This document shows positions 14,402-34,090 of a DNA stretch of 64,000 nucleotides, piece by piece (positions within the stretch are counted from its first letter, which is position 1; each line of letters starts with the position of its first letter). This stretch comes from Kiritimatiellia bacterium (GTDB taxonomy: Bacteria; Verrucomicrobiota; Kiritimatiellia; RFP12; UBA1067), in assembly GCA_024694365.1 (NCBI GenBank), contig JAILJX010000072.1, forward strand, positions 1 to 64,000, given 5' to 3'. The position numbers and the translations under genes were made by a program. The notes beneath the pieces were generated by a model, which did no database searches, was not told the origin of the DNA, and saw nothing but the letters and a program-made list of their open reading frames with translations.

Positions 14402-14409
14402 GGTATAAT
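14402..14409 (+). promoter_or_regulatory. obg promoter, leaderless type
   Basis: TGG then TATAAT at 14404-14409 followed by AT. The expected start is near 14416, about 3 bases before the obg ATG at 14419, with no room for a ribosome binding site. Confidence 0.75.
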
Positions 14410-21567: not shown

Positions 21568-21947
21568 GTCGAGCCGTCCTTTCGGGGTATGACAAGCTCC
21601 GCGCTGGTATGGATCGCGTGGCGCTTGAGAAGGATGAAGAAGACGCTTTCGTCGCGCATGTACGACGACACGTCCCTTATCCCCGTGGCGTGATACTTCG
21701 TCGCCGCCCAGTCGAGCATGCGAACGTTGTTTTCAAGTGTCGTGGTCTGCTTGAACAGCCTGAAATCGCACTCGTTCGGGAGGTCGGGATTGCCGGACGC
21801 GAGCGGTATCAGGTTGAAGAGGTACCATCCGCGGTTCGTCACCTCGACCATCGGCTTGCCGCCCTGATCGGTGTATCTCACCGTCGCGCAGCCTGCGCAG
21901 AGGAGGGAGAGTGCCGCCAGGATCGCGCAGTGGGGGATTCTGCTCAT
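21546..21947 (-). CDS. Small lipoprotein, YGWYLF family, copy 2
   Basis: 133 residues with a lipoprotein signal (MSRIPHCAILAALSLLCAGC; lipobox LCAGC). It shares the block VTNRGWYLFNLIPLASGNP with the upstream gene, so the two are paralogues. The function is unknown. It starts in the stop of copy 1 (ATGA) and its end overlaps hisC by 22 bases. Confidence 0.75.
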   Translation of the reverse strand: MSRIPHCAILAALSLLCAGCATVRYTDQGGKPMVEVTNRGWYLFNLIPLASGNPDLPNECDFRLFKQTTTLENNVRMLDWAATKYHATGIRDVSSYMRDESVFFILLKRHAIHTSAELVIPRKDGSTCASQDR

Positions 21948-22417
21948 TTCACGGACTCCTCTCCGTCTTCCAACGAAACCTCGATGCCGCACGGCGCGGC
22001 GGCGGGGCAGGCGCTGAGCACGCCCGAGAGCTGTATGGACCTGAACGACAGCAGGTAGGGGATCGGCAGGGGGAGGTTGATGCCGGGTATCTGCAGCATG
22101 ACCGAGTCGGAGATCGTGTAGTGCATGCCCGCCGCGTCGGCGTTCTGTCCGTTCGCGTACTCCATGAAGCGGCTCTGTATCTTGTCTATCGCAAGATCGT
22201 CCCTGAACATGACCCAAGGGGTCCATGGGTCGGCGCTTGCGTTGCCGCACGCGAGGGGGATGGTGTCGAAAAGATACCACCCGTAGTTGGAGACCAGGAC
22301 ATGCTCCTGGTTTGTGGACTTCACCTTTGCGCGCTGCAGGGAATAGCAGCCCGCGCAGAGGGTCAGCGCCGCGCAGGCCGCGACGGCGTGTCGGAATGTC
22401 GGCAGACGGTTCATCAT
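21944..22417 (-). CDS. Small lipoprotein, YGWYLF family, copy 1
   Basis: 157 residues with a lipoprotein signal ending in LCAGC. The block VSNYGWYLFDTIPLACGN is shared with copy 2. The C-terminal part, absent from copy 2, includes a proline-rich INLPLPIPYLLSF stretch and acidic end. The ATG at 22417 lies about 2 bases from the expected transcription start, so the mRNA should be leaderless. First gene of the operon lipoprotein-lipoprotein-hisC-ntrB-ntrC. Confidence 0.78.
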   Translation of the reverse strand: MMNRLPTFRHAVAACAALTLCAGCYSLQRAKVKSTNQEHVLVSNYGWYLFDTIPLACGNASADPWTPWVMFRDDLAIDKIQSRFMEYANGQNADAAGMHYTISDSVMLQIPGINLPLPIPYLLSFRSIQLSGVLSACPAAAPCGIEVSLEDGEESVK

Positions 22418-22425
22418 GGCCTTAT

Positions 22426-22431
22426 ATTATA
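22426..22431 (-). promoter_or_regulatory. Promoter of the lipoprotein-hisC-ntrBC operon
   Basis: Reading on the minus strand, AAGGAGTATAATATAAG with TATAAT from 22431 to 22426. It lies directly after the ketosynthase stop (TAA at 22438-22436). The expected start is near 22419. Confidence 0.7.
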
Positions 22432-22435
22432 CTCC

Positions 22436-23530
22436 TTATCGCATCCGTCCGCAAGCCGTGCGGCCGAGTATGACGGACGCATTGCTGCCGCCGAAGGCGA
22501 ATGAATTCGAAAGTATCGCGTCCGCCTCGAGCGAATTGCCGGGCCCGGGGACGGGGAAGGGGGCGAGGGACCTGTCGACCGGCGATGCGGCGTGGGGAGG
22601 GAGGCCGCTGCCGGACGAGAGCGCAATCCACGCGAGCGCCGCCTCTATCGCGCCCGCGGCGCCGAGGCAGTGGCCGGTCATCGGTTTTGTGGACGAGCAG
22701 GGGACCGAGTCGCCGAAGACTCTTCTCACGGCGGCGCACTCCATCGCATCGTTGTATGCCGTCCCCGTTCCGTGGAGGTTGATGTATCCGATGTCGTGCG
22801 GTTCGAGCCCCGCGTCCTCGAGGGCGGCTCTCATCGCAGCCTCGGCGCCCGCGCCTGTCGGATCGGGCGCGGTGAGGTGGTGGGCGTCGGAGCTTTCCCC
22901 GACACCAAGGAGCTCGATGCCTTCCGCTTCGCCGCCGCGTCTCATTATGAATATGGCAGCGCCTTCGCCCAGGTTGATGCCGTCCCTGTCGGCGCAAAGC
23001 GGCCTTGCAAGCCGCGGGGACAGCGCTTCGAGGGCGTTGAACCCGCCGCAGACAATCCGCGTCTTCGCGTCAGCCCCGCCCGCCAGCACGGCGTCGCACA
23101 CGCCCTCGGCAAGGAGTCTTCTGGCGGACGCGAAAACTTTCGCGCTCGACGAGCACGCCGTGGAGACGGACCACGCGGGGCCCCTTACGCCCCACTTCGT
23201 CTTGAGCCTTTCGGCGGGGAAGGCCATGTCGATCCTGTCGGGGTTGGAGGTGAACTCCTCCATGGTCGAATTGCTCGTTCCGATCACCGCGCCGAGCCTT
23301 TCCGGCCTGACGCCGAGGTTTTCGAGTTCTGGCCGGAGCTGCTCCATCGCTTCGTCGACGATCGCCGCGATTCCCTTCAGGCCGGTCTCGCCGAACATCG
23401 TCACGTCGCCGCCGGGGAGCGTCGCCGGCTTCATTCCCGACACGTCTCCCGCGAAAAGCCCCCTCGCGGTCTCGTCCACGCCTTTCCCCAGCGCGGATAC
23501 GATACCGGGGCGCGACAGCAGGCATCTCAT
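22436..23530 (-). CDS. Beta-ketoacyl-ACP synthase, FabF-like, of the aryl-polyene-like operon
   Basis: 364-residue condensing enzyme that should extend an ACP-bound chain with malonyl-ACP. The Cys-His-His set is complete: Cys126 in SVSTACSSSAK, His253 in NLHGTGTAYND, His287 in KPMTGHCLGAAGAIEA. DAVLAGGADA and SNSFAFGGSNAS are also typical. The start ATG overlaps the stop of the exporter gene (ATGA). It is the only ketosynthase in the operon, whereas described aryl polyene clusters usually have several. Last gene of the operon. Confidence 0.88.
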   Translation of the reverse strand: MRCLLSRPGIVSALGKGVDETARGLFAGDVSGMKPATLPGGDVTMFGETGLKGIAAIVDEAMEQLRPELENLGVRPERLGAVIGTSNSTMEEFTSNPDRIDMAFPAERLKTKWGVRGPAWSVSTACSSSAKVFASARRLLAEGVCDAVLAGGADAKTRIVCGGFNALEALSPRLARPLCADRDGINLGEGAAIFIMRRGGEAEGIELLGVGESSDAHHLTAPDPTGAGAEAAMRAALEDAGLEPHDIGYINLHGTGTAYNDAMECAAVRRVFGDSVPCSSTKPMTGHCLGAAGAIEAALAWIALSSGSGLPPHAASPVDRSLAPFPVPGPGNSLEADAILSNSFAFGGSNASVILGRTACGRMR

Positions 23531-26460
23531 CGGTTCTCTCCTTTCCCTCCGGACGTTTCCCAGTCGAAGACCTGATCCGGAAATTGCGCCGCCACTTCGT
23601 CCTTTGCGGCGAAGAAAGCCTTTTCCATTTCTTTCGCCCCGGACGGCAGCTTCCTCACCGTCGCCATGTAGCTTGTCATCCCCGTGGCGACGCACGCGAC
23701 GAAATACGTCTTCGCCCCCAAGGCGTGCGCAAAGCGGAAGGCGCCGCGTCCGCGGTCGCCGGCCATGACGAGGGAGTCGCCGCGTTCGAGAGCATCGCCG
23801 GCGAAGAAGGCGCTCTCCATGCCTATTCCGGAGATGGGGCGGATCTTCACCTTCGCCCGCTTCGCGTGCTTGAGGTAGAACCTGTTGAACACGGAGGTCC
23901 TCTCGAGATCCGTCCAAGCGTGGAATGTCGCCCTGCACTCCCCGATCGCCGCCAGGGCCTCGACCGTTCCGACGTGCGAAGAGAGGACGAACACGCCGCG
24001 TCCGGATTTTACGTCGGCGAGGAACTCCTCCGCGTCGGGCGAGCCGTCGGTGACGACGCGCGGCAGGTGCCGGCCTTCGGCCATGATCGCCATCTTGTCC
24101 GCCATGGATCTGGCGAACATCACGGTCTTCGCGAGCTTCGGCGAAGCGCGGCGCACGGGCCGCGAGAACAGCCATATGCAAATCCCCGCCGCCGCCGAGA
24201 GCAGATGGAGAACCCTCAGGCCGAACACCGAATATGCGATGTACAGAAGCTCCATCCCCAGAGGCGAAGCGCCATGCTCGCTTCCGCTGGCGGAAGCCGC
24301 CCTGCACCGGACCGCTTCTTGCGTGTGCGCGAGAATCCACGCCGCGGCGAAGGAGACCGGAAGTCCCGTCCCGAGCACGGCGCCGAAGGCCTGCACGACC
24401 GGGAACGAGACGGTCGCGAGAAGGCCGAACCCGACCATGCTCGTCGCAAGGGAGCAGGCGGCGGGCTTGAGCGCGTCAATCCCTCCCGACCTCAGAAAGA
24501 CGGCGTAGTCGAGGCTCATCCCGACGAGAAGGAAGGCGGCCAGGAGGTGGAAGAGGTTGATCTCCACGCCTGCGAACCCGAGGGCCGCGCCGACGGTCGC
24601 CAGCGCCGCCAGGGACGGCGCAAGGACCTTGAAGGCGGCGAGCCTGTAGACCAGAAGGAGCATCGCCAGCAGAACGCCCATGGCGAGAGCGAGGCGCTCC
24701 GACACTTCATGCGTCCATGCTGCGAGCATGCCGGCAAGATGCCTGCGAGGCTGCCAGAACGAAACGCCGTCCGGCAGCGGGCCGCAGGGCCTGTCCGCGA
24801 CCGGGAAGATCAGCGAATCTCCCGCAGTGAACGCGCCGGTCAGGATTTCGGGGACGTCGCTTCCCCAAGGTTTCGGCGGTTCCGGCGCAGCCGGGATTTC
24901 GGCGCCTAGGCTTTCGGCGAGGCGCGGTCCCTGCTCCCTGTAGAGCTTCTCCACGTTTTCGGCGACGGCCTTGCGCTTTGCGAGAGAGGGGAGAAACTTC
25001 GCGAGATGCGCCGTGCCGGGCGCAAGCGCAAGCTTTTCCTCCTTTTCGAGCATTTCGTCGAGAGTCGCGCCGCTTACGATCACCGTCCCGCAGTCCTGTC
25101 CGCCCATGCCGCCCGTCTCGGCGAAAAACCGTTCCGCCTTGGCGAGGTCTTCGGGCGGACGGTAGAGCGCGTCGGGGCTTGTGCCGAACCCGGCCCTGCC
25201 CAGCCCCCATGCAACCGCGGCCGCATATGCCGCAAGGGCGAGCGGCGCCCACGGCTTCAGGGCCGGCTTCGGAGAGATCCGCATCTCCGACGGGCATTTT
25301 GCCTGCGCATCGGGTTCGCCGTCCCTGCGCGGGTACGCGAAGAGCACCGTCAAAAGCGCAGCTGCGAGCGCGAAGGCGAGGAACGTGGCGCTTTGGCGCA
25401 GGACGGGCATGGACGAAAGGGCCAGCGGCAGAAGGCTGAGCTCCGTCGTGGCGAACGAGACGGCGAGGCTTTTTGCGACTTTCGCCCCGGAGCCTTTCTT
25501 CATCATCAGCCAATGAAACGAGTAGTCCACGACGAGCCCCAGGACCGTCGTCCCGAATACGAGTGTCATGAGGTGAAACGACGGGAAGAATGCGACGAGC
25601 GCCAGGGCCCCGGCGAGGGCGGACGTCCCGAGCGAAAGCGCGAGAAGGGGCAGCCATCTTGCCGATCTGAAAGCAAAGACCGAGAGCAGGACTATGAACG
25701 CCAGGGAGGCCGCCGAGAGGAGACCTATCTCTTTTTTGCATTTTCGCGCCGCTCTGGCGGTATGCATGGGGATGCCGCCCGCCGTGACGGATACGCCGCC
25801 GCCTTGGGCCTCGGCAATGGCCGAGGCCAGGCGGTCGGCGAAGGCGATCGTCCTGTCGGTGTCGCGGGCGGTCTCCGCCGCAAGCTCCACGGCGACGAGA
25901 ATGCTGGTCGTGCCGTTGCGCTCCGCCATCAAGACGCCGTCGCGCCTTTTCCACTCCCCGTGGGACGCTTCGTCCAGAGACCTGACGAATCCCTCGGCGA
26001 GGCCGAACGGGTCGTCTTTCTGGCTTATGAGCCTGGCCGGGGACGAATAAAGGCTTTTTATGTGCCGTCTCGCGATCTTGGCGCGGCCTTCTTCCGTCTG
26101 CAGAAGCTTTTGCGCATCTTCGGACGCGAGCCCCGCGCTGTTCGCGGCGATGAAGTCGAGAGCGTTCGTGAAGCTTTCGTCGGTCCTGAATCTTACGTTC
26201 TTCACCCCGTCGGCGGCGGCCATGGCGCCGGCGAACCGTTCCGCGGCCTGCAGCGCTTCCCTGCCGTCCTTCGACGAGACTGCGACAGGCACCATGTTCG
26301 CCGGCTTTTCCCTTGCCGCTTTCGGGATTTCCCCCGCCGCATCTCCGGCAAGCCCGTCGAGCGCCGTCGCGATCTCCGGCGGATTGCGGAGGCACAAGGA
26401 CGCAAGCGCGAGCGCCAAGGCGCACGGCAGGGCGACGGCGAATGCGGCCCTTGCGTTCAC
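23527..26460 (-). CDS. MMPL/RND exporter fused to an LpxL-like acyltransferase
   Basis: 977-residue inner membrane protein. Two MMPL halves are visible: membrane helices at about 250-390 (including FGTTVLGLVVDYSFHWLMM) and about 640-790 (LLVGMSLDYAVFLRSG), each after a large periplasmic loop; the GxxxDY pattern is the MMPL proton-path motif. The last 190 residues are a lysophospholipid/lipid A-type acyltransferase with SSHVGTVEA, an H-x4-E catalytic motif at His829-Glu834. It should move an acyl product across the membrane and/or attach it to a lipid. The start is a GTG inside the stop of the LolA-like gene. In described clusters these are usually separate proteins. Confidence 0.85.
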   Translation of the reverse strand: MNARAAFAVALPCALALALASLCLRNPPEIATALDGLAGDAAGEIPKAAREKPANMVPVAVSSKDGREALQAAERFAGAMAAADGVKNVRFRTDESFTNALDFIAANSAGLASEDAQKLLQTEEGRAKIARRHIKSLYSSPARLISQKDDPFGLAEGFVRSLDEASHGEWKRRDGVLMAERNGTTSILVAVELAAETARDTDRTIAFADRLASAIAEAQGGGVSVTAGGIPMHTARAARKCKKEIGLLSAASLAFIVLLSVFAFRSARWLPLLALSLGTSALAGALALVAFFPSFHLMTLVFGTTVLGLVVDYSFHWLMMKKGSGAKVAKSLAVSFATTELSLLPLALSSMPVLRQSATFLAFALAAALLTVLFAYPRRDGEPDAQAKCPSEMRISPKPALKPWAPLALAAYAAAVAWGLGRAGFGTSPDALYRPPEDLAKAERFFAETGGMGGQDCGTVIVSGATLDEMLEKEEKLALAPGTAHLAKFLPSLAKRKAVAENVEKLYREQGPRLAESLGAEIPAAPEPPKPWGSDVPEILTGAFTAGDSLIFPVADRPCGPLPDGVSFWQPRRHLAGMLAAWTHEVSERLALAMGVLLAMLLLVYRLAAFKVLAPSLAALATVGAALGFAGVEINLFHLLAAFLLVGMSLDYAVFLRSGGIDALKPAACSLATSMVGFGLLATVSFPVVQAFGAVLGTGLPVSFAAAWILAHTQEAVRCRAASASGSEHGASPLGMELLYIAYSVFGLRVLHLLSAAAGICIWLFSRPVRRASPKLAKTVMFARSMADKMAIMAEGRHLPRVVTDGSPDAEEFLADVKSGRGVFVLSSHVGTVEALAAIGECRATFHAWTDLERTSVFNRFYLKHAKRAKVKIRPISGIGMESAFFAGDALERGDSLVMAGDRGRGAFRFAHALGAKTYFVACVATGMTSYMATVRKLPSGAKEMEKAFFAAKDEVAAQFPDQVFDWETSGGKGENR

Positions 26461-27026
26461 CTTTTCTTTTCCTTGAAGGTGATTTCGGATTTTCCTCCGT
26501 CAGGAGATTCAAGCAAGACCTTTTCGAGCGTCCTGTCTCCCGTCAGCTCGGCCTTCGCCACCAGCTTCTTCACGGCTCCCGATCCGGGGAGGAGGGTTAT
26601 TTTCCATTTTCCGTCTTCGAGAAAGCGGACTTCCGCGTCGAAAAGCCCTTCGAACGCCTTGGGATCGCCGGCCAGGAAGGCATCGGTCTCCTTCCTGATC
26701 TCTTCGTAATGCGGGAGCTCCGAAAGCTTCTTCACCGTCGTGCCCTCGTCTTCGTCCTCGAAGACCATTTCGCCGGCGTTCATGGAGATGGTCCTGGAGA
26801 AAGGTTTGAGGATCTTCCACACTATCCCTTCGCCGGCGGTGCAGACGACTTCGCCTTCCGTCACGAGGGTCTTTTTTGCGTCGGGGAGGGTCCGCTCCAT
26901 CCTCCATGACGCGCTCGAGCCAAGCGATCTTCTGAGCGCCGATTCGCATGTAGAGGGCAAAACCAGCGCGCAGGCGCTCCACGCCAGAGACGCCGAAACC
27001 GCGAAAGAGATGAGCTTCTTCATCAT
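26457..27026 (-). CDS. LolA-like outer-membrane lipoprotein carrier of the polyene-like operon
   Basis: 189-residue exported protein: signal peptide MMKKLISFAVSASLAWSACA, then a LolA-like half-barrel (SSASWRMERTLPDAKKTLVTEG, GIVWKILKPFSRTISMN, and a late GDRTLEKVLLESPDGG). Aryl polyene clusters carry a LolA-like gene thought to escort the lipid-like product to the outer membrane. Two ATG codons (27026 and 27023) overlap the ligase stop. Confidence 0.78.
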   Translation of the reverse strand: MMKKLISFAVSASLAWSACALVLPSTCESALRRSLGSSASWRMERTLPDAKKTLVTEGEVVCTAGEGIVWKILKPFSRTISMNAGEMVFEDEDEGTTVKKLSELPHYEEIRKETDAFLAGDPKAFEGLFDAEVRFLEDGKWKITLLPGSGAVKKLVAKAELTGDRTLEKVLLESPDGGKSEITFKEKKR

Positions 27027-28342
27027 ATTCCGTTCCTTTCTGCCGCGCCGGAGGCGCATATGCCGTTCGGGCCTGTCAGCGAAAAAGAGAAGCATCCTTG
27101 CGCTTTGCGCGAGACCGACAGCAGGAGCTTTTCGCGTGGCGTCGCGATTTTCTGGAATTTCAGCCTGCGGTATGCCGCGGCGTCCGGGAAATCCGCGAAC
27201 GCCTGTTTGGCGAAGTGGTGCAGGAAGTAGAGCTGGGCCACACCTGGGAGGATCGGCATCTGCGGAAAGTGCCCGCTGAAGCATTCGCAGTCCGGCGGGA
27301 AGGCAATGGTCGCTTCGAGGGTGGACGTGTCGGCCCGCCACGACAGGACCGCCGGCTCCTTGCACCATGCAGCCAAAGCCGCTTTCGCGTCCCTGGATGT
27401 GAGCTTGCCCCGTTCGTCCGACGGCAGGGCTCTGACGAACCGCATGCGTCTGGGGAACGCCGTGCGTCCGGTCTTTCCGATCAGTTCGCGCCTGAGAAGC
27501 GCGGCGAGCGATGAGTGGGTCTGTTCCGCAAGGGCATTCATCCCGTCCGCCGAAAGTACGGCGAGCGCGCCGATCCTGGCGACGTCGCCGTCCATCGCCT
27601 CCGCCCTGCACCGCGAGACGAAAGGATGGGATTCGAAGGCCTGCTCTATGGCCGGCAGCGACACGAATTCCTCAAGAATCTTCACCATGCGGTCCGTGCG
27701 GCCCAGAAGCCTGAAGCGCCGCTTGGAGGCGAAGGACACCGCGTCGGACATCTCCAGCCTTTCCCGCATGGCGTGCGGCGATGCTATTTCAAGCCTTCCG
27801 CCTTCGCCTTCCCTGCCCTCGACGCCGGGGAACATATTCCACAGTTCTCCGTCTTGCGCGCGCGATCTGTAGGCGACGGTCCCCGCCTCGGTTGATCCGA
27901 ATATCTCGAGCGGGGAGACGCCGAACGTCTCCAGCGCCGCGTTAGAAGTCTCTTCGCGAAGGAGGCTGCCCGACGTCACGATCGCCTTCACCGCGCCTTT
28001 CAGCGCCCTGGCGTCGGGCATGTCGACGAGCTTTTCCAGGAACGATGGCGTGGTGACCAGGACAAAACGGCCGTATTTGCCTTTGCATGCGGAGAGCTGT
28101 TCGCACGAGATCGCGGTCTCCGGCTCCACGGGAGACCCCGCTTCTTCCGGAGCCCGTACGCGCCATAGCGCACCATACATGTGATCGGCCGGCACGGACG
28201 CCACGATAGGCGTCCGTTCCGCCCATATCTGCGGAAACGCCGCCACCAGCGCCTTTGCGTCCGCCCTCAGGGACTTTTCGGTGCGGGATACGGTTTTCGC
28301 CGCGCCGGACGAGCCGGAGGTCGAGAATGCGACTTCATCCAT
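27023..28342 (-). CDS. AMP-dependent ligase fused to a FabZ-like hotdog dehydratase
   Basis: 439 residues in two parts. The first 330 are an acyl/aryl-AMP ligase: FSTSGSSGAAKT (A3 loop) at residues 6-17, FGSTEAGTVAYR (A5), LGRTDRMVKI (A8) and PSDERGKLT (A10 Lys). The remainder is a hotdog dehydratase with FSGHFPQMPILPGVAQ (His358). The ligase starts right at the A3 loop and so lacks the N-terminal region of ordinary ligases. In aryl polyene clusters the ligase loads the starter acid on the carrier protein, and the dehydratase makes double bonds. It overlaps COG4648 by 8 bases. Confidence 0.83.
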   Translation of the reverse strand: MDEVAFSTSGSSGAAKTVSRTEKSLRADAKALVAAFPQIWAERTPIVASVPADHMYGALWRVRAPEEAGSPVEPETAISCEQLSACKGKYGRFVLVTTPSFLEKLVDMPDARALKGAVKAIVTSGSLLREETSNAALETFGVSPLEIFGSTEAGTVAYRSRAQDGELWNMFPGVEGREGEGGRLEIASPHAMRERLEMSDAVSFASKRRFRLLGRTDRMVKILEEFVSLPAIEQAFESHPFVSRCRAEAMDGDVARIGALAVLSADGMNALAEQTHSSLAALLRRELIGKTGRTAFPRRMRFVRALPSDERGKLTSRDAKAALAAWCKEPAVLSWRADTSTLEATIAFPPDCECFSGHFPQMPILPGVAQLYFLHHFAKQAFADFPDAAAYRRLKFQKIATPREKLLLSVSRKAQGCFSFSLTGPNGICASGAAERNGI

Positions 28343-28721
28343 GGCGAAATCTCCTCCTGTACAGCCATTCCCCCAGGAAAAGCGCGCCCATCATCGCGTA
28401 GGACAGCAGTCCGTTGTAGAACACCCATGTTTCGCGCGATGCGAAGACCGTCGCGACGGTGACGGCGAGATGGACGGCGAGGAACGCGGTCCACACCCTC
28501 GTCACGTTTCTGCAGTATGCGATCCCCCTCGCATCCAGCTCGGCTCCGGAGCGCCGTGCGAAGATCTCGGCGACGGGCGTCCTGAAAAGCGAGAACGAGA
28601 AAACGGCGAGGGCGACGGCGACCATGATGGCCGGATACAGCCTGAACCATACCTTCGCCTTGAGGAGGTATATCGCCCATACGATCCCGAGCGAAAGCGC
28701 GATTCGCAGAACGGATTTCAT
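28335..28721 (-). CDS. COG4648-type membrane protein of the polyene-like operon
   Basis: 128 residues with about four membrane helices (SVLRIALSLGIVWAIYLL, YPAIMVAVALAVFSFSLF, VWTAFLAVHLAVTVATVF and FYNGLLSYAMMGALFLGEWL). The RNVTRVWTAF and YRRRFR features fit the COG4648 family found in aryl polyene and related clusters. Its role there is not established. It starts 4 bases inside the carrier protein gene. Confidence 0.75.
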   Translation of the reverse strand: MKSVLRIALSLGIVWAIYLLKAKVWFRLYPAIMVAVALAVFSFSLFRTPVAEIFARRSGAELDARGIAYCRNVTRVWTAFLAVHLAVTVATVFASRETWVFYNGLLSYAMMGALFLGEWLYRRRFRHG

Positions 28722-28975
28722 TTTCCCTGGCTTGCGGAGAGGGATGCTATGACATCGGCGACGTCTCCGAGCGTGCGTATCGATTTGAAATCCTCGGCCT
28801 TGACCTTCAGGCCCGTCTGCCGCTGCAGGCGCACCACCAAGTCCACCGCATCGATAGAATCGAGGTCAAGATCCTCGTAAAGCCTCGCGTCGGGCGCGAG
28901 GGAAGCCCTGTCGCATTCGAATTCGGCGACCAGCACCTCCCTTATGGCGTCAAGGACCTCTTCTTTCGTTCCCAT
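28718..28975 (-). CDS. Acyl carrier protein 2 of the polyene-like operon
   Basis: 85-residue acyl carrier protein with the phosphopantetheine serine in LDLDSIDAVDLVVRLQ. The fold pattern (MGTKEEVLDAIREVLVAEF start) is normal. It lies 3 bases after carrier protein 1. Described clusters also carry two such proteins. Confidence 0.9.
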   Translation of the reverse strand: MGTKEEVLDAIREVLVAEFECDRASLAPDARLYEDLDLDSIDAVDLVVRLQRQTGLKVKAEDFKSIRTLGDVADVIASLSASQGK

Positions 28976-28978
28976 GCT

Positions 28979-29257
28979 TCAGTCCTCCAGTTCGATGCCT
29001 GCGTTCGCGGCGATGAACGAAGCGAGCGATGCGACAGAGCGGAAATGCTCCCTGTTTTCGTCCGAGTTCGCCTTGAACTTTACGTTGTATCTTTTCCGCA
29101 GCGCCGCGCCGATCTCCAGCGCGTCGATCGAATCCAACCCCACGCCCTCGCCGAAAAGCGGGGCGTCGGAGGGTATGTCGGCAGCCGTGAGGCCGTCGGC
29201 CTCCACGGATGATATGATGGTTTCGCGTATCTGATTTTCCAGTTCGGTTCTTTTCAT
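28979..29257 (-). CDS. Acyl carrier protein 1 of the polyene-like operon
   Basis: 92-residue acyl carrier protein with the serine in GVGLDSIDALEIGAALRKRY. The ATG at 29257 coincides with the expected transcription start of the promoter at 29264-29269, so the operon mRNA should be leaderless; an upstream in-frame extension would run through the promoter. First gene of the operon. Confidence 0.88.
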   Translation of the reverse strand: MKRTELENQIRETIISSVEADGLTAADIPSDAPLFGEGVGLDSIDALEIGAALRKRYNVKFKANSDENREHFRSVASLASFIAANAGIELED

Positions 29258-29263
29258 CTTTAT

Positions 29264-29273
29264 ATTATACCAA
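29264..29273 (-). promoter_or_regulatory. Promoter of the polyene-like operon, leaderless type
   Basis: On the minus strand, TTTGGTATAATATAAAG with TATAAT from 29269 to 29264. The expected start is at about 29257, the A of the first ATG. No -35 is recognisable. Confidence 0.75.
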
Positions 29274-29400: not shown

Positions 29401-30600
29401 ATGTTCGGGTTTCTGAAAAGGAAAAAGAATGTCCCGGTCGTCTACAGGCGGCCGGAGCATTGCATTTCCAGGAAAAACATCGATCAGGACGCGCTGAAGG
29501 TCCTCTATCGCCTGTCCGCCCTCGGATATACCGCGTACCTTGTCGGCGGGGGGGTGAGGGACTTGCTGATGGGAAGGACGCCGAAAGATTTCGATGTCGG
29601 GACCTCTGCGAAGCCGAACGAGGTGAAAAGGGCGTTCCGCAACTGTTTCCTCGTCGGGCGGCGGTTCCGCCTGGCCCACGTAAGGTTCGGCGACAAGGTC
29701 ATAGAGACGGCGACGTTCAGGCGCGAGTCGCAGACGGTCGGGGAGATAATAGAGCATGCATCGGAGGGGCCTCTCGAAGACAACACGTTCGGCACGCCCG
29801 AGACGGACGCGTACAGGCGGGACTTTACGGTCAACGGGCTTTTCTACGACATAAAGGATTTTTCGGTCATCGACTGGGTCGGCGGGATGAAGGACATAGA
29901 AAAACGCACGATCCGCGCGATAGGCGATCCCGACATACGCTTTCAGGAGGATCCTGTCAGGATGATGCGCGCGATAAAGTTCTCCGCGAGGCTCGGCTTC
30001 ACGATAGAGCGGAGAACAGCAGCGGCCATGAAGCGCCATCACGCATGCATACTGTCGGCGTCGGTCCCGCGCGTGTGCGAGGAGGTGTTCCGCCTTTTCA
30101 CGTACGGGCACAGCGAGGAGGCGTTTCGCCAGATGTGGTCGTGCGGGATGCTCGGCGACCTTCTTCCGGAACTTGCGAAGTCGATAGACCGCACCGGAGG
30201 GCGGAAGAGCCCGGCGTGGAGATATCTTGCGACCCTCGACAGATACGAGACAATGATGGCGGAGCGCGGATTTGAGGTCGCCAACGGGCTGCGGGCCGCC
30301 GTGCTCATGACGGTGATGTTCCGCGAATGCTCCAAAGACGGCGCGGGGCGGCGCGTGATGCAGACGATGATGGATGCGCTCAAGATGCCGAAGTCCGTGT
30401 ATTTCCTCGCGGTTCTCCTCATGGAGAGCGGTCGCCGTTTTGCGCAGCTTCCCGCCAAGGGGAAGAGCCGTTTCATCTACAACCGCGATTTTCTGGACGC
30501 CCTCGACTACAACAGGATCGTCGCAAGGGCCGAAGGGACGGACGAAAGCGTCATCGACGCATGGGCGAATCTATACGAAGAGAAAGGAAACAAACAATGA
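29401..30600 (+). CDS. pcnB: Poly(A) polymerase I-like / tRNA nucleotidyltransferase
   Basis: Class II nucleotidyltransferase of the PcnB type. The 399 residues start with the PcnB-style ISRKNIDQDALKVLYRL, then the active site GYTAYLVGGGVRDLL and PKDFDVGTSA, followed by IETATFR, RRDFTVNGLFYD and DPVRMMRAIKFSARLGF. A role in RNA 3' polyadenylation or CCA repair cannot be separated by sequence alone; the GTSA after DFDV favours the poly(A) group. The start lies at the expected transcription start. Its stop overlaps the next start (ATGA). Confidence 0.88.
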   Translation: MFGFLKRKKNVPVVYRRPEHCISRKNIDQDALKVLYRLSALGYTAYLVGGGVRDLLMGRTPKDFDVGTSAKPNEVKRAFRNCFLVGRRFRLAHVRFGDKVIETATFRRESQTVGEIIEHASEGPLEDNTFGTPETDAYRRDFTVNGLFYDIKDFSVIDWVGGMKDIEKRTIRAIGDPDIRFQEDPVRMMRAIKFSARLGFTIERRTAAAMKRHHACILSASVPRVCEEVFRLFTYGHSEEAFRQMWSCGMLGDLLPELAKSIDRTGGRKSPAWRYLATLDRYETMMAERGFEVANGLRAAVLMTVMFRECSKDGAGRRVMQTMMDALKMPKSVYFLAVLLMESGRRFAQLPAKGKSRFIYNRDFLDALDYNRIVARAEGTDESVIDAWANLYEEKGNKQ

Positions 30601-31430
30601 AGGTACCTGAAGAACTCCTCCCCGTAGTCGAATGGTGGGAGCGGAACGGCAAGCGCGCGATGCTGGTCGGCGGAGTCGTCGCCGTCGTTGCCATCGTAGG
30701 CTTCTCATGGTCGGCCCGCCGCGCGCGAAACCGCGCAGCCGCGGCGCAGGCTACGTTCACCGCAGCCGAAAGCCTGCTGGATGTCCGCGTCGGGGCCGAC
30801 GGCGACGGCAGCAAGGAGGCGGCGGTCGCGAAAATACGCGAAACGGCAGGCGGTTCGTCCTCCACGCCGCTTCAGAAGCTGATGCTGGCGGATGCTCTCG
30901 TTTCAAGCGGCAAGGCCGAAGAGCTCGCATCTGCGCGCGGAATCCTGGAGGAGCTCGCCGCCGAAGGCGATTCGCTCCCCGTGATTTGCCGCGATCTGCC
31001 CGCTTTCAAGCTTTGCGTCGTGCTCGAATCCGAGAAGAAGTTCGACGAAGCGCGCAAGGCGTACGAGGATTTTGCAGGCAAAAATCAGAAGAGCGTCAAT
31101 GCTCTCGAGGCCAAGCTCGGCGTCGCAAGATGTTTGGCGCAGTCCGGCAAGAAAGATGAAGCCGTGGACTATCTTGAATCGCTGGATGGGCTCTCGGATG
31201 GAGAGAAGAACCTCGTCGAGTCGACAGTGTCGCTCGTGAAGCGCTGGGTTCCGGCAAATCAGCGCATAATCGGAGAAAAGCCCGTCTCCGAAACTCCCGC
31301 CGCGCCGGATGTCGCCCCTGCTGCTCCCGCCGCGCCGGAGGTAGCCCCTGCGGCCCCCGCCGCGCCGGATGTCGCCCCTGCGGCTCCCGTCGCTCCGGAT
31401 GTCGCCCCCGAATCGGTTAAGGCCGAATGA
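30597..31430 (+). CDS. TPR-type membrane-anchored protein (YfgM-like)
   Basis: 277 residues: a short cytoplasmic start, one membrane helix at about 20-40 (AMLVGGVVAVVAIVGFSW), a helical repeat region (PLQKLMLADALVSSGKAEEL, KFDEARKAYEDFAGKNQKSV, LGVARCLAQSGKKDEAVDYL) like YfgM/TPR_21 proteins, and a Pro/Ala tail of three 10-residue repeats (AAPDVAPAAP). A chaperone-like role outside the membrane is possible. It starts in the pcnB stop and ends in the mlaE start. Confidence 0.65.
   Translation: MKVPEELLPVVEWWERNGKRAMLVGGVVAVVAIVGFSWSARRARNRAAAAQATFTAAESLLDVRVGADGDGSKEAAVAKIRETAGGSSSTPLQKLMLADALVSSGKAEELASARGILEELAAEGDSLPVICRDLPAFKLCVVLESEKKFDEARKAYEDFAGKNQKSVNALEAKLGVARCLAQSGKKDEAVDYLESLDGLSDGEKNLVESTVSLVKRWVPANQRIIGEKPVSETPAAPDVAPAAPAAPEVAPAAPAAPDVAPAAPVAPDVAPESVKAE
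31302..31410 (+). repeat. 30-bp tandem repeat coding for AAPDVAPAAP
   Basis: Three copies at 31302-31331, 31332-31361 and 31362-31391 plus a partial copy to 31410. The copies differ at a few bases. Length variation between strains would be expected. Confidence 0.85.
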
Positions 31431-32245
31431 CGGTAGTACGCGAGCCTATGTGGGACGACGCCCCGCGCTCACGCGCGCAGGGCGTCGTTCGTCATTTGAC
31501 GAAGTTTCTCGCATCGCTTGGCTGGGCGTTCAGGATAATGACGAGATCCGCCGCCGCGTTCCCGTCTGTGGTGTGCCGGTCGAGGGGACGCGAGGATTTG
31601 GTCCGTCAGCTGTACGTAAGCGGCATACGGACGCTTCCGGTCGTCACAATCGTGTCGGTCTTCATCGGAATGATCCTCGCGTTGCAGGTGGGCCTTGAGC
31701 TGAGGCGTTTCAACCAGGAGATATATCTTGGCGCCGCGGTGATGGTTTCGCTCATACGCGAAATGGGTCCGTTCGCCTGCGGAATGTGTCTTGCCGCGTG
31801 CGTGGGTTCGTCCATAGCCGCAGAGCTGGGGACGATGAAAGTCAACGATGAAATCGCCGCGCTTGAGATAATGTCCATTTCCCCCATACGGTTTTTGGCG
31901 GCTCCTCGCATATTGGCGCTTGTGCTTGTGGCGCCGCTTCTTTCGTTTTATTGCTGCATAGTGGGGGCGATGGGCGGAGGCCTTGTCGGCGTGACGCAGC
32001 TTGGGGTCGATTTCGACCAGTACATCGCGAGCGCGATGAGCATTGCGGACGTGAAAGACCTCTATGTAGGGCTTCTGAAGGCTACGCTTTTCGGGCTTAC
32101 CATCGGCACCGTCTCCGTTGCCGAGGGGTTCGGCACGACATTGGGCGCGACCGGAGTCGGGAAATCGACCCAGAGGAGTGTTATCGTGAGTTTTCTGCTG
32201 ATATTGATGTTCGGGTATATGGTTACCCGGGCGTGTTACCGCTAA
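31427..32245 (+). CDS. mlaE: MlaE-type ABC transporter permease
   Basis: Inner membrane permease of the phospholipid (Mla/MCE) transporter. The 272 residues contain the family core LYVSGIRTLPVVTIVSVFIG, EMGPFACGMCLAACVGSSIAAELG, and MKVNDEIAALEIMSISPI, with five or so membrane helices. It overlaps the previous gene by ATGA and is followed by mlaF and mlaD, so the order is E-F-D. Confidence 0.92.
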   Translation: MTVVREPMWDDAPRSRAQGVVRHLTKFLASLGWAFRIMTRSAAAFPSVVCRSRGREDLVRQLYVSGIRTLPVVTIVSVFIGMILALQVGLELRRFNQEIYLGAAVMVSLIREMGPFACGMCLAACVGSSIAAELGTMKVNDEIAALEIMSISPIRFLAAPRILALVLVAPLLSFYCCIVGAMGGGLVGVTQLGVDFDQYIASAMSIADVKDLYVGLLKATLFGLTIGTVSVAEGFGTTLGATGVGKSTQRSVIVSFLLILMFGYMVTRACYR

Positions 32246-32255
32246 GGGGTTGAAG

Positions 32256-32999
32256 ATGGCGCTTGTGGAATTCCAGAACGTGACCAAAACCTTTGCGGGG
32301 GTGCCCGTGCTTGACGGGCTGTCTTTCACTGTCGAGAAAGGCGAGATCCTCTGCATTGCGGGTCCTTCGGGAACGGGAAAGTCGGTCACGCTCAAGCATC
32401 TCGTACGTCTTCTGACGCCGACTTCGGGGACTGTTTTGTTTGACGGGGTTGACGTCTCGGAGTGCTCCGATGCGGAGCTTTCGGCCGTGCGCGACCGCAT
32501 CGGGTACCTTTTCCAGGGGGGGGCGCTCCTCGCGTGGATGACGGTCGCCGAGAATGTGGCGCTGCCCCTGCAGGAATGCACGGACATGCCGGACGCGGAG
32601 ATAGACAGGAGGGTGTCCGCGGCGCTGGAGGCGGTCGAGCTCGCCGATGCGGCGGGGAAATATCCGGCCGAGATATCCGGCGGGATGCAGAAACGCGCGG
32701 GACTGGCCCGTGCGATAGTGCGCGAGTCGGACGTGATTCTCTACGACGAGCCGACCAGCGGACTGGATCCTGTCACTTCGGCGACCATAAACAATCTCAT
32801 ACGCAAGCTGAACAAAAAGCTGGGGATAACGTCCGTCGTCGTGACGCACGATCTTCAGGGTGCGCTCGCCATCGCGGATCGCATACTTCTCCTGAAGAAC
32901 GGCCGCGTCGCGGAGTGCTCGCGTCCGGCCGATTTCGTCAGGTCGGGGAACGGCGACGTAAAAGAGTTTCTTGCGGCCATGAAAGGAGAGATGCTATGA
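32256..32999 (+). CDS. mlaF: MlaF-type ABC transporter ATPase
   Basis: ATPase of the same transporter. The 247 residues have Walker A GPSGTGKS, signature EISGGMQKRAGLARAI, Walker B VILYDEPTSGLDP and the H-loop THD. The Q-loop region is FQGGALLAWMTV. I chose ATG 32256 because AAGGGG lies about 7 bases upstream; a TTG at 32250 is less likely. Confidence 0.94.
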   Translation: MALVEFQNVTKTFAGVPVLDGLSFTVEKGEILCIAGPSGTGKSVTLKHLVRLLTPTSGTVLFDGVDVSECSDAELSAVRDRIGYLFQGGALLAWMTVAENVALPLQECTDMPDAEIDRRVSAALEAVELADAAGKYPAEISGGMQKRAGLARAIVRESDVILYDEPTSGLDPVTSATINNLIRKLNKKLGITSVVVTHDLQGALAIADRILLLKNGRVAECSRPADFVRSGNGDVKEFLAAMKGEML

Positions 33000-34090
33000 G
33001 CGGAAAGAGGAAAGACGCGTTTTCCGAGGCTATAGTCGGCGTTTTCATGCTGGCGGTCCTTGCGCTTCTTGTGTATTTCACGATCGTGATCTCCGGCGTC
33101 GACGTTCTGCACGGGCAGAAGCGCGTCAAGGTTGCCGTGACTTTCGCGGATGTCGGCGGATTGAAGGATCATGACAACGTGATGTACAGGGGGACGAAGG
33201 TCGGTTCGGTGGACAGGATCGAACTCTCCCCGGACGAGCTGAAGGTCGTCATGGAAATAGACCGCGGAGTCGTCCTGAGGGAGGGGTACAGGATTTCCGT
33301 ATGCGATCTTTCGATGCTTGGCGGGCACTATCTTCTGCTAGAGGAGGGGACCGGAGAACCGCTGTCGCTCGAGTCCACGCTTTTCGCCGGGGAGTCTCCT
33401 GTCGATTTCGGCCGCTCGGTGACAAAAGTCGTGCGCAGGCTTGACGAGGTGCTGTCCGATCCGAAGATCACCAACATCGTCGCAAAGGTCGATTCCGCAG
33501 CTGAAGACGTGTCGGCGGTCGTTGCGGATGTGCGCGCGGGCAAGGGAACGGTCGGAAAACTCCTCTCGCCCGACGAGACGCTGTACTCGGAGATGAAGTC
33601 CGCCGTCTCCGGAGCCAACACGGCGATGACGAATCTGGCCGAGATTGCGACGGGAATGCGGGAAGGGAAGGGGACGGCAGGTAAGCTTCTTGCTGACGAC
33701 ACGGTCTACAACGACCTTCAGCGCACGCTTTCCTCGGCGGCGGACATAGCCGAAAGGCTCAGGAACGGCGAAGGCCTCGCGGGGAGGCTCCTTGCGAAGG
33801 ACGATCCGATATATGGAGAGCTTGACGCGGCGGTCAAAGCTTTCCGTTCGGCGTGCGAATCGTTCGACGCGAAAGATGCGATGGATGGCGCCGAGAAGCT
33901 GGTCGCGAACCTTAACGTCATAGTCGAGCGGCTCAAGAACGGCGAGGGTTCTGCCGGAAAGCTTCTCGCGGATGACGATCTGTACAACGAAATAGAGGGT
34001 CTTATGAAAGATGCGCGGCAGGTTCTCGACAACTTCCGCGACACTACGCCGATTTCGACGTTCGGATCTCTCGTGACTGGAGGCCTGTGA
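32996..34090 (+). CDS. mlaD: MlaD-like MCE domain protein
   Basis: Membrane-anchored periplasmic lipid-binding subunit. The 364 residues have one N-terminal helix (AIVGVFMLAVLALLVYFTIV), an MCE domain at about 35-125 (KRVKVAVTFADVGGLKDHDNV, YRGTKVGSVDRIEL) and a long helical C-terminus with four repeats of the form GKGTVGKLLSPDETLY / GEGSAGKLLADDDLYNE. These repeats are common in MCE proteins of this type. It overlaps mlaF by ATGA. Confidence 0.9.
   Translation: MSGKRKDAFSEAIVGVFMLAVLALLVYFTIVISGVDVLHGQKRVKVAVTFADVGGLKDHDNVMYRGTKVGSVDRIELSPDELKVVMEIDRGVVLREGYRISVCDLSMLGGHYLLLEEGTGEPLSLESTLFAGESPVDFGRSVTKVVRRLDEVLSDPKITNIVAKVDSAAEDVSAVVADVRAGKGTVGKLLSPDETLYSEMKSAVSGANTAMTNLAEIATGMREGKGTAGKLLADDTVYNDLQRTLSSAADIAERLRNGEGLAGRLLAKDDPIYGELDAAVKAFRSACESFDAKDAMDGAEKLVANLNVIVERLKNGEGSAGKLLADDDLYNEIEGLMKDARQVLDNFRDTTPISTFGSLVTGGL

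Follow-up and report, generated by a model that had tools for sequence, protein, structure and literature searches.

An aryl polyene-type operon in the window

The window analysed here is a 64,000-nucleotide stretch (positions 1 to 64,000, forward strand) of contig JAILJX010000072.1 of assembly GCA_024694365.1, from an uncultured Kiritimatiellia bacterium of gut type, and the system in question is a seven-gene operon within it that resembles the clusters for aryl polyene (APE) biosynthesis. Aryl polyenes are yellow antioxidant membrane pigments. The operon lies on the minus strand of this contig (C113), from an ATG at 29257 to a stop at 22436, with intergenic distances along it of +3, -4, -8, -4, -4 and -4 nt. 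These coordinates, together with family scans, agree with an earlier reading of the DNA letters (the original prediction), which had placed a tight operon of seven genes from these families here and had noted that neighbouring genes overlap or nearly touch. The features of the locus are:

29264..29269, minus strand: TATAAT, -10-like TTGGTATAAT, six bases 5' of the apeE ATG; putative leaderless promoter, from sequence
28979..29257, minus strand: apeE-like acyl carrier protein (ACP1), PRK09184; presumed starter carrier
28718..28975, minus strand: apeF-like acyl carrier protein (ACP2), PRK05350; presumed malonyl carrier
28335..28721, minus strand: apeG-like COG4648 membrane protein, matching E. 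coli ApeG
27023..28342, minus strand: apeH-apeI fusion, an N-truncated acyl-ACP ligase joined to an ApeI hot-dog dehydratase
26457..27026, minus strand: apeL-like LolA periplasmic lipid carrier, PF19574 above cut-off
23527..26460, minus strand: apeM-like MMPL/RND exporter with a fused C-terminal LpxM/PatA-like acyltransferase
22436..23530, minus strand: apeO-like ketosynthase, PRK09185, Cys-His-His present
22426..22431, minus strand: TATAAT of the next gene (21944-22417), which sets the downstream end of the operon
29401..30600, plus strand: divergent pcnB-like gene, preceded by its own TATAAT (29387), the upstream boundary of the operon

Pairwise comparison with the annotated APE cluster of E. 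coli CFT073 gave every gene of the operon a counterpart (apeE, F, G, H-I, L, M and O); the genes follow the E. coli gene order but skip several of its members, and these one-to-one matches confirm that hallmark APE genes are gathered in one tight operon. The paired carrier proteins typical of APE pathways are present in tandem: ACP1 is 56% identical to E. coli ApeE, scores above the NF006617 cut-off and carries its serine in GLDSIDALE, and ACP2 is 47% identical to ApeF and scores above the NF003757 cut-off. The COG4648-like protein had no Pfam or NCBIfam match in the family scans and is 34% identical to residues 59-186 of E. coli ApeG. The LolA-like protein (LolA_3 family) shares 21% identity with ApeL. 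The exporter is 31% identical to ApeM, with an MMPL score slightly below the Pfam cut-off. Its C-terminus (about residues 735-977) contains an HX4E motif and is 31% identical to the acyltransferase part of ApeJ; we assign it as an ApeJ-like acyltransferase because its profile matches LpxM (5kn7, E = 2e-6) and its fold matches LpxM and PatA. The ketosynthase is 42% identical to E. coli ApeO, and its best PDB matches are the ApeO chains of X. doucetiae (6qsp_A) and A. baumannii (7f28_B).

The remaining core genes are found on a second contig

A search of the same genome for ketosynthases identified a 5.4 kb contig, C87, on which apeP-apeQ-apeR-apeC-apeD all run in the same direction. The encoded ApeP scores above the PF22817 cut-off. 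ApeR matches the solved ApeR structures from Paraburkholderia and Acinetobacter (4ewg, 7f27) with E ~1e-131 or better, the next match being at 6e-72, and the best PDB matches of ApeQ are 7caw and 6nrp, with Acinetobacter ApeQ first. ApeC belongs to PF13723 and has only two PDB matches, 7f28_A and 6qsp_B, both of them ApeC chains, while the ApeD-like protein is a PlsC-type acyltransferase (PF01553). This gene set is exactly the one that follows apeO in relatives with a single contiguous cluster.

The window operon is thus very probably the apeE-F-G-HI-L-M-O half of a split APE pathway, with apeP-Q-R-C-D on C87 as the other half. The genome contains both members of the ketosynthase/chain-length-factor pair, ApeO in the window and ApeC on C87; a ketoreductase (ApeQ), a dehydratase (ApeP) and a ketosynthase (ApeR) are on C87, and the dehydratase ApeI is in the window. 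Export parts (ApeM, ApeL) and lipid-anchoring parts (ApeD, the ApeJ-type acyltransferase) are present by homology across the two loci. Having all core genes in a single cluster is usual for APE pathways, though not obligatory, and here they are split between C113 and C87. The original prediction had described a stripped-down set, a description that does not survive the finding of a ketoreductase, a second dehydratase, a second ketosynthase, a chain-length factor and an acyltransferase on C87; the enzymes that it allowed might be clustered elsewhere, giving a standard product, are indeed found together there (apeQ, P, R, C and D). Judged from gene content, the pathway is rearranged and not stripped down, its core being complete once C87 is counted.

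The assembly is 85% complete and 5% contaminated, and we considered whether C87 could be a contaminant. Its composition argues against this, agreeing with that of the window (tetranucleotide r of 0.93, compared with 0.80-0.95 among the window's own pieces; GC content of 62%). A tree of the ApeH-ApeI fusion groups the genome with the relatives G088 and G077, near which the ApeR tree lacks resolution; the trees neither prove nor contradict the membership of C87. We also rejected the notion that the break between apeO and apeP is merely a contig edge, because a further promoter and gene come after apeO within an 81 kb contig, and apeP has its own TATAAT with a divergent, unrelated frame upstream, which spans at least 55 codons and extends past the contig end.

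Relatives contain contiguous and differently broken clusters

The relatives compared include 115 genomes of the family. Five (G077, G074, G075, G044 and G002) have one contiguous run, E-F-G-HI-L-M-O-P-Q-R-C-D, and G071 and G366 (the latter from another family) have a nearly contiguous run in which P was not detected; the window operon and C87 are exactly the two pieces of this cluster. Broken clusters occur in about 15 relatives, an approximate tally in which some edges are contig ends, and their junctions differ: O/P in G000 (this genome), G100, G107 and G054, L/M in G058, G062 and G084, M/O in G098, P/Q in G106, and several breaks in G082, G104 and G105. The O/P break in G088 (C141, L096) leaves the two halves head-to-head and divergent, an inverted arrangement intermediate between the contiguous and fully split forms. 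Where relatives are named, they are assemblies of Kiritimatiellae or Verrucomicrobia, and many derive from gut samples of cattle, yak, goat and horse.

The two halves are strongly associated. ApeHI was found in 61 of the 115 genomes and ApeR in 56; 54 contain both, seven ApeHI only, two ApeR only and 52 neither (Fisher p = 2e-22, uncorrected for relatedness). Gene content, orthology, the complementarity of the two loci and their conservation are direct observations from these genomes.

Ketosynthase phylogeny and aryl-contacting residues

In the ketosynthase tree the window ApeO falls in a Kiritimatiellae clade of 20 rows (type A), beside which stands a second clade of six rows (type B). Both group with E. 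coli ApeO and not with FabF or ApeR, placing the window ApeO, by sequence, in a distinct lineage inside the known ApeO kind; the distinct clade anticipated by the original prediction was thus recovered, within the ApeO group. The genome's own ketosynthase on contig C66 was tried as the missing partner and rejected, as it is a separate, type B ApeO in the tree. The contig end truncates this second ApeO-like gene (L038:17285-18142), after which comes an aspartyl-tRNA-synthetase-like gene; the type B ApeO of relatives is located with apeP/Q/R-like genes.

All 26 copies of ApeR retain the residues that contact the aryl group, Phe118, Tyr135 and Phe202; the corresponding positions of the genome's own FabF are Ser, Ile and Glu. 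Mutation at Tyr135 lowers the activity of Acinetobacter ApeR (PMC8358021). This conservation makes an aryl polyene the best-supported prediction for the product.

Predicted pathway

On the model of the E. coli, Xenorhabdus and Acinetobacter systems (PMC8253772, PMC8358021, PMC8041823), we infer each biochemical step, the product and its role as follows. The truncated ApeH would charge ApeE with an aromatic acid, which ApeO, with ApeC as its chain-length factor, and ApeR would elongate by malonyl units brought by ApeF. Reduction by ApeQ and dehydration by ApeI and ApeP would yield a conjugated aryl polyene, which ApeD and the ApeM-borne acyltransferase domain may link to a membrane lipid. Transport to the outer membrane, where the product may protect against oxidation, would then fall to ApeM, possibly assisted by ApeG, and to the LolA-like ApeL.

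Evidence against the split pathway, and alternative readings

Several observations weigh against a split APE pathway. C87, 5.4 kb long, is a contig of its own, and its membership rests on composition and relatives. The type A ApeH starts at the TSGSTG motif, and ~130 N-terminal residues are absent compared with E. coli. At the position of Leu185 in Acinetobacter ApeQ, 23 of 24 copies have Val or Ile, the copy of this genome having Val; this gives weaker support for an aromatic starter than the ApeR residues do. No ammonia lyase (HAL, PF00221), UbiC (PF04345) or Rv2949c-type chorismate lyase (PF01947) was found in the 115 genomes, and no FkbO/Hyg5-type (XanB2-type) chorismatase (PF21168) in this genome, which is 85% complete. 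Neither operon encodes ApeB, ApeK, ApeN or the ApeJ glycosyltransferase half.

The truncated ligase is probably active. It belongs to the AMP-binding family and is 30% identical to residues 135-438 of E. coli ApeH, and the dehydratase half is 30% identical to ApeI, scores above the PF22818 cut-off and has a profile match to the X. doucetiae ApeI chain 6qsr_A. The ApeH P-loop, the GSTE and GR.D motifs and Lys313 show no or almost no variation among 13 sequences. An AlphaFold model of the fusion is confident (pLDDT 90), with ANL aryl-ligase fold matches, and the ApeH part matches aryl-acid ligases (AuaEII, benzoate-CoA ligases) and the naturally short ligase 4gs5, although this ligase superfamily is broadly similar in fold. 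Our assignment of probable activity follows from the conserved motifs and from this model.

With respect to the starter, weak-scoring PF21168 chorismatase-like proteins occur in 50 of the 115 genomes. They show no association with ApeHI (p = 0.35), and for this reason we set them aside as a source of the aryl starter. The proteins in those 50 genomes (including L131-L134) are two-domain, FkbO/Hyg5-chorismatase-like and Rid-related, of about 330-350 residues, and are not tied to APE genes.

The original prediction had suggested that the operon may make a different, non-polyene lipid. Such a reading would make it a self-sufficient reduced operon in which enzymes of general fatty-acid synthesis reduce and dehydrate, and it can draw on the seven genes standing under their own promoter and on relatives such as G058 (90% complete), which carries HI and M-O and in which ApeR was not detected. 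The presence of apeP-Q-R-C-D in the same genome, the strong co-occurrence of the halves and the contiguous clusters in relatives all speak against it; moreover, characterised systems pair ApeO with ApeC as chain-length factor (PMC8358021), and FabG is reported to be unable to substitute for ApeQ (PMC8041823). We regard a non-polyene product as very improbable. A polyene made by the same architecture from a non-aromatic starter, such as a short acyl group, with no aryl-acid-making enzyme encoded, would accommodate the missing HAL, UbiC and Rv2949c homologues, the residue at ApeQ position 185 and the truncated ligase. We nonetheless consider it improbable, given that the aryl-stacking residues of ApeR are fully kept and that the ligase fold is closest to aryl-acid ligases, with the same breadth of the superfamily in mind; the acid could also come from plant material or from an unrecognised enzyme.

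Within the split APE pathway, the genes could specify a Kiritimatiellae-specific APE lipid, with a minimal truncated ApeH, an imported aromatic starter, no glycosyl or methyl decoration and a dispersing gene set whose core is kept. We hold this more specific proposal to be rather unlikely. An imported starter could, speculatively, be a plant phenolic acid in the herbivore gut; were the starter to come from the diet, a gut bacterial membrane pigment would be tied to plant phenolics.

Comparison with known systems

The clusters of E. coli CFT073 (c1186-c1204) and X. doucetiae (apeA-R) share apeE, F, G, H, I, L, M and O with the window, order kept, and apeP, Q, R, C and D with C87. Here, in contrast, the genes form two loci, H and I are fused, H is N-truncated and an acyltransferase is fused to ApeM; apeA joins apeB, K, N and the ApeJ glycosyltransferase among the genes found in neither Kiritimatiellae operon. 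No glycosyltransferase, methyltransferase or thioesterase is in either operon, and G366, a relative from another family, retains an ApeJ-type acyltransferase and ApeK. The ApeH-ApeI fusion is common to A. baumannii (PMC8041823), whose ApeO-ApeC, ApeQ and ApeR structures rank among the top PDB matches, whereas the Kiritimatiellae ligase half begins directly at TSGSTG and the cluster is split. In Azoarcus sp. BH72 the xanthomonadin/arcuflavin aryl polyene pathway occupies two unlinked loci, both essential, and provides a precedent for the two-locus arrangement (PMC3949708); the Azoarcus cluster holds a XanB2-type chorismatase, for which this 85%-complete genome gave no match. The flexirubin models LolA2_flexi and FlxB give only sub-threshold matches, well below the flexirubin cut-offs, and the tyrosine/histidine-type ammonia lyase that supplies the flexirubin starter is the PF00221 enzyme missing from the family genomes.

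The APE pathway itself is already known, and gene-cluster surveys have reported APE clusters in rumen and Caprinae-gut Verrucomicrobiota (PMC9177762, PMC9769736); the new parts are the repeated, differing cluster breaks and the truncated ligase. An apparently minimal biosynthetic operon can be a fragment of a dispersed complete pathway, and counting clusters by contiguity therefore misjudges their content. With some fifteen broken clusters and five or more contiguous ones, the family is suited to the study of cluster break-up.

Promoter and neighbouring genes

The apeE TATAAT (29269-29264) lies six bases from the ATG with no Shine-Dalgarno sequence between them, making a leaderless start at 29257 plausible. 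Among 24 TATAAT sites on four contigs, 11 lie 4-10 nt before an open frame, the share among random sites being 12% (binomial p = 5e-5). Such sites occur at window positions 14404, 29387 (pcnB), 36460, 29269 (apeE) and 22431 and at L039 5060, and pcnB, apeP and other genes share the arrangement seen at apeE. A TATAAT near the start is a general habit of this genome, in which leaderless starts look common. The leaderless promoter of the original prediction fits this placement; its status as something particular to the operon does not.

Adjoining the operon, positions 29401-34090 contain the divergent pcnB together with TPR and MlaE/F/D lipid-transport genes, and pcnB and MlaE are also near apeE in G084 (L091). 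Elsewhere in the genome, contig C11 (L040:4800-9523) encodes a ketosynthase of type I polyketide synthase style (IAIVGMSCRFAG) and, after it, a protein of 1107 residues, possibly a separate polyketide or polyunsaturated-lipid locus.

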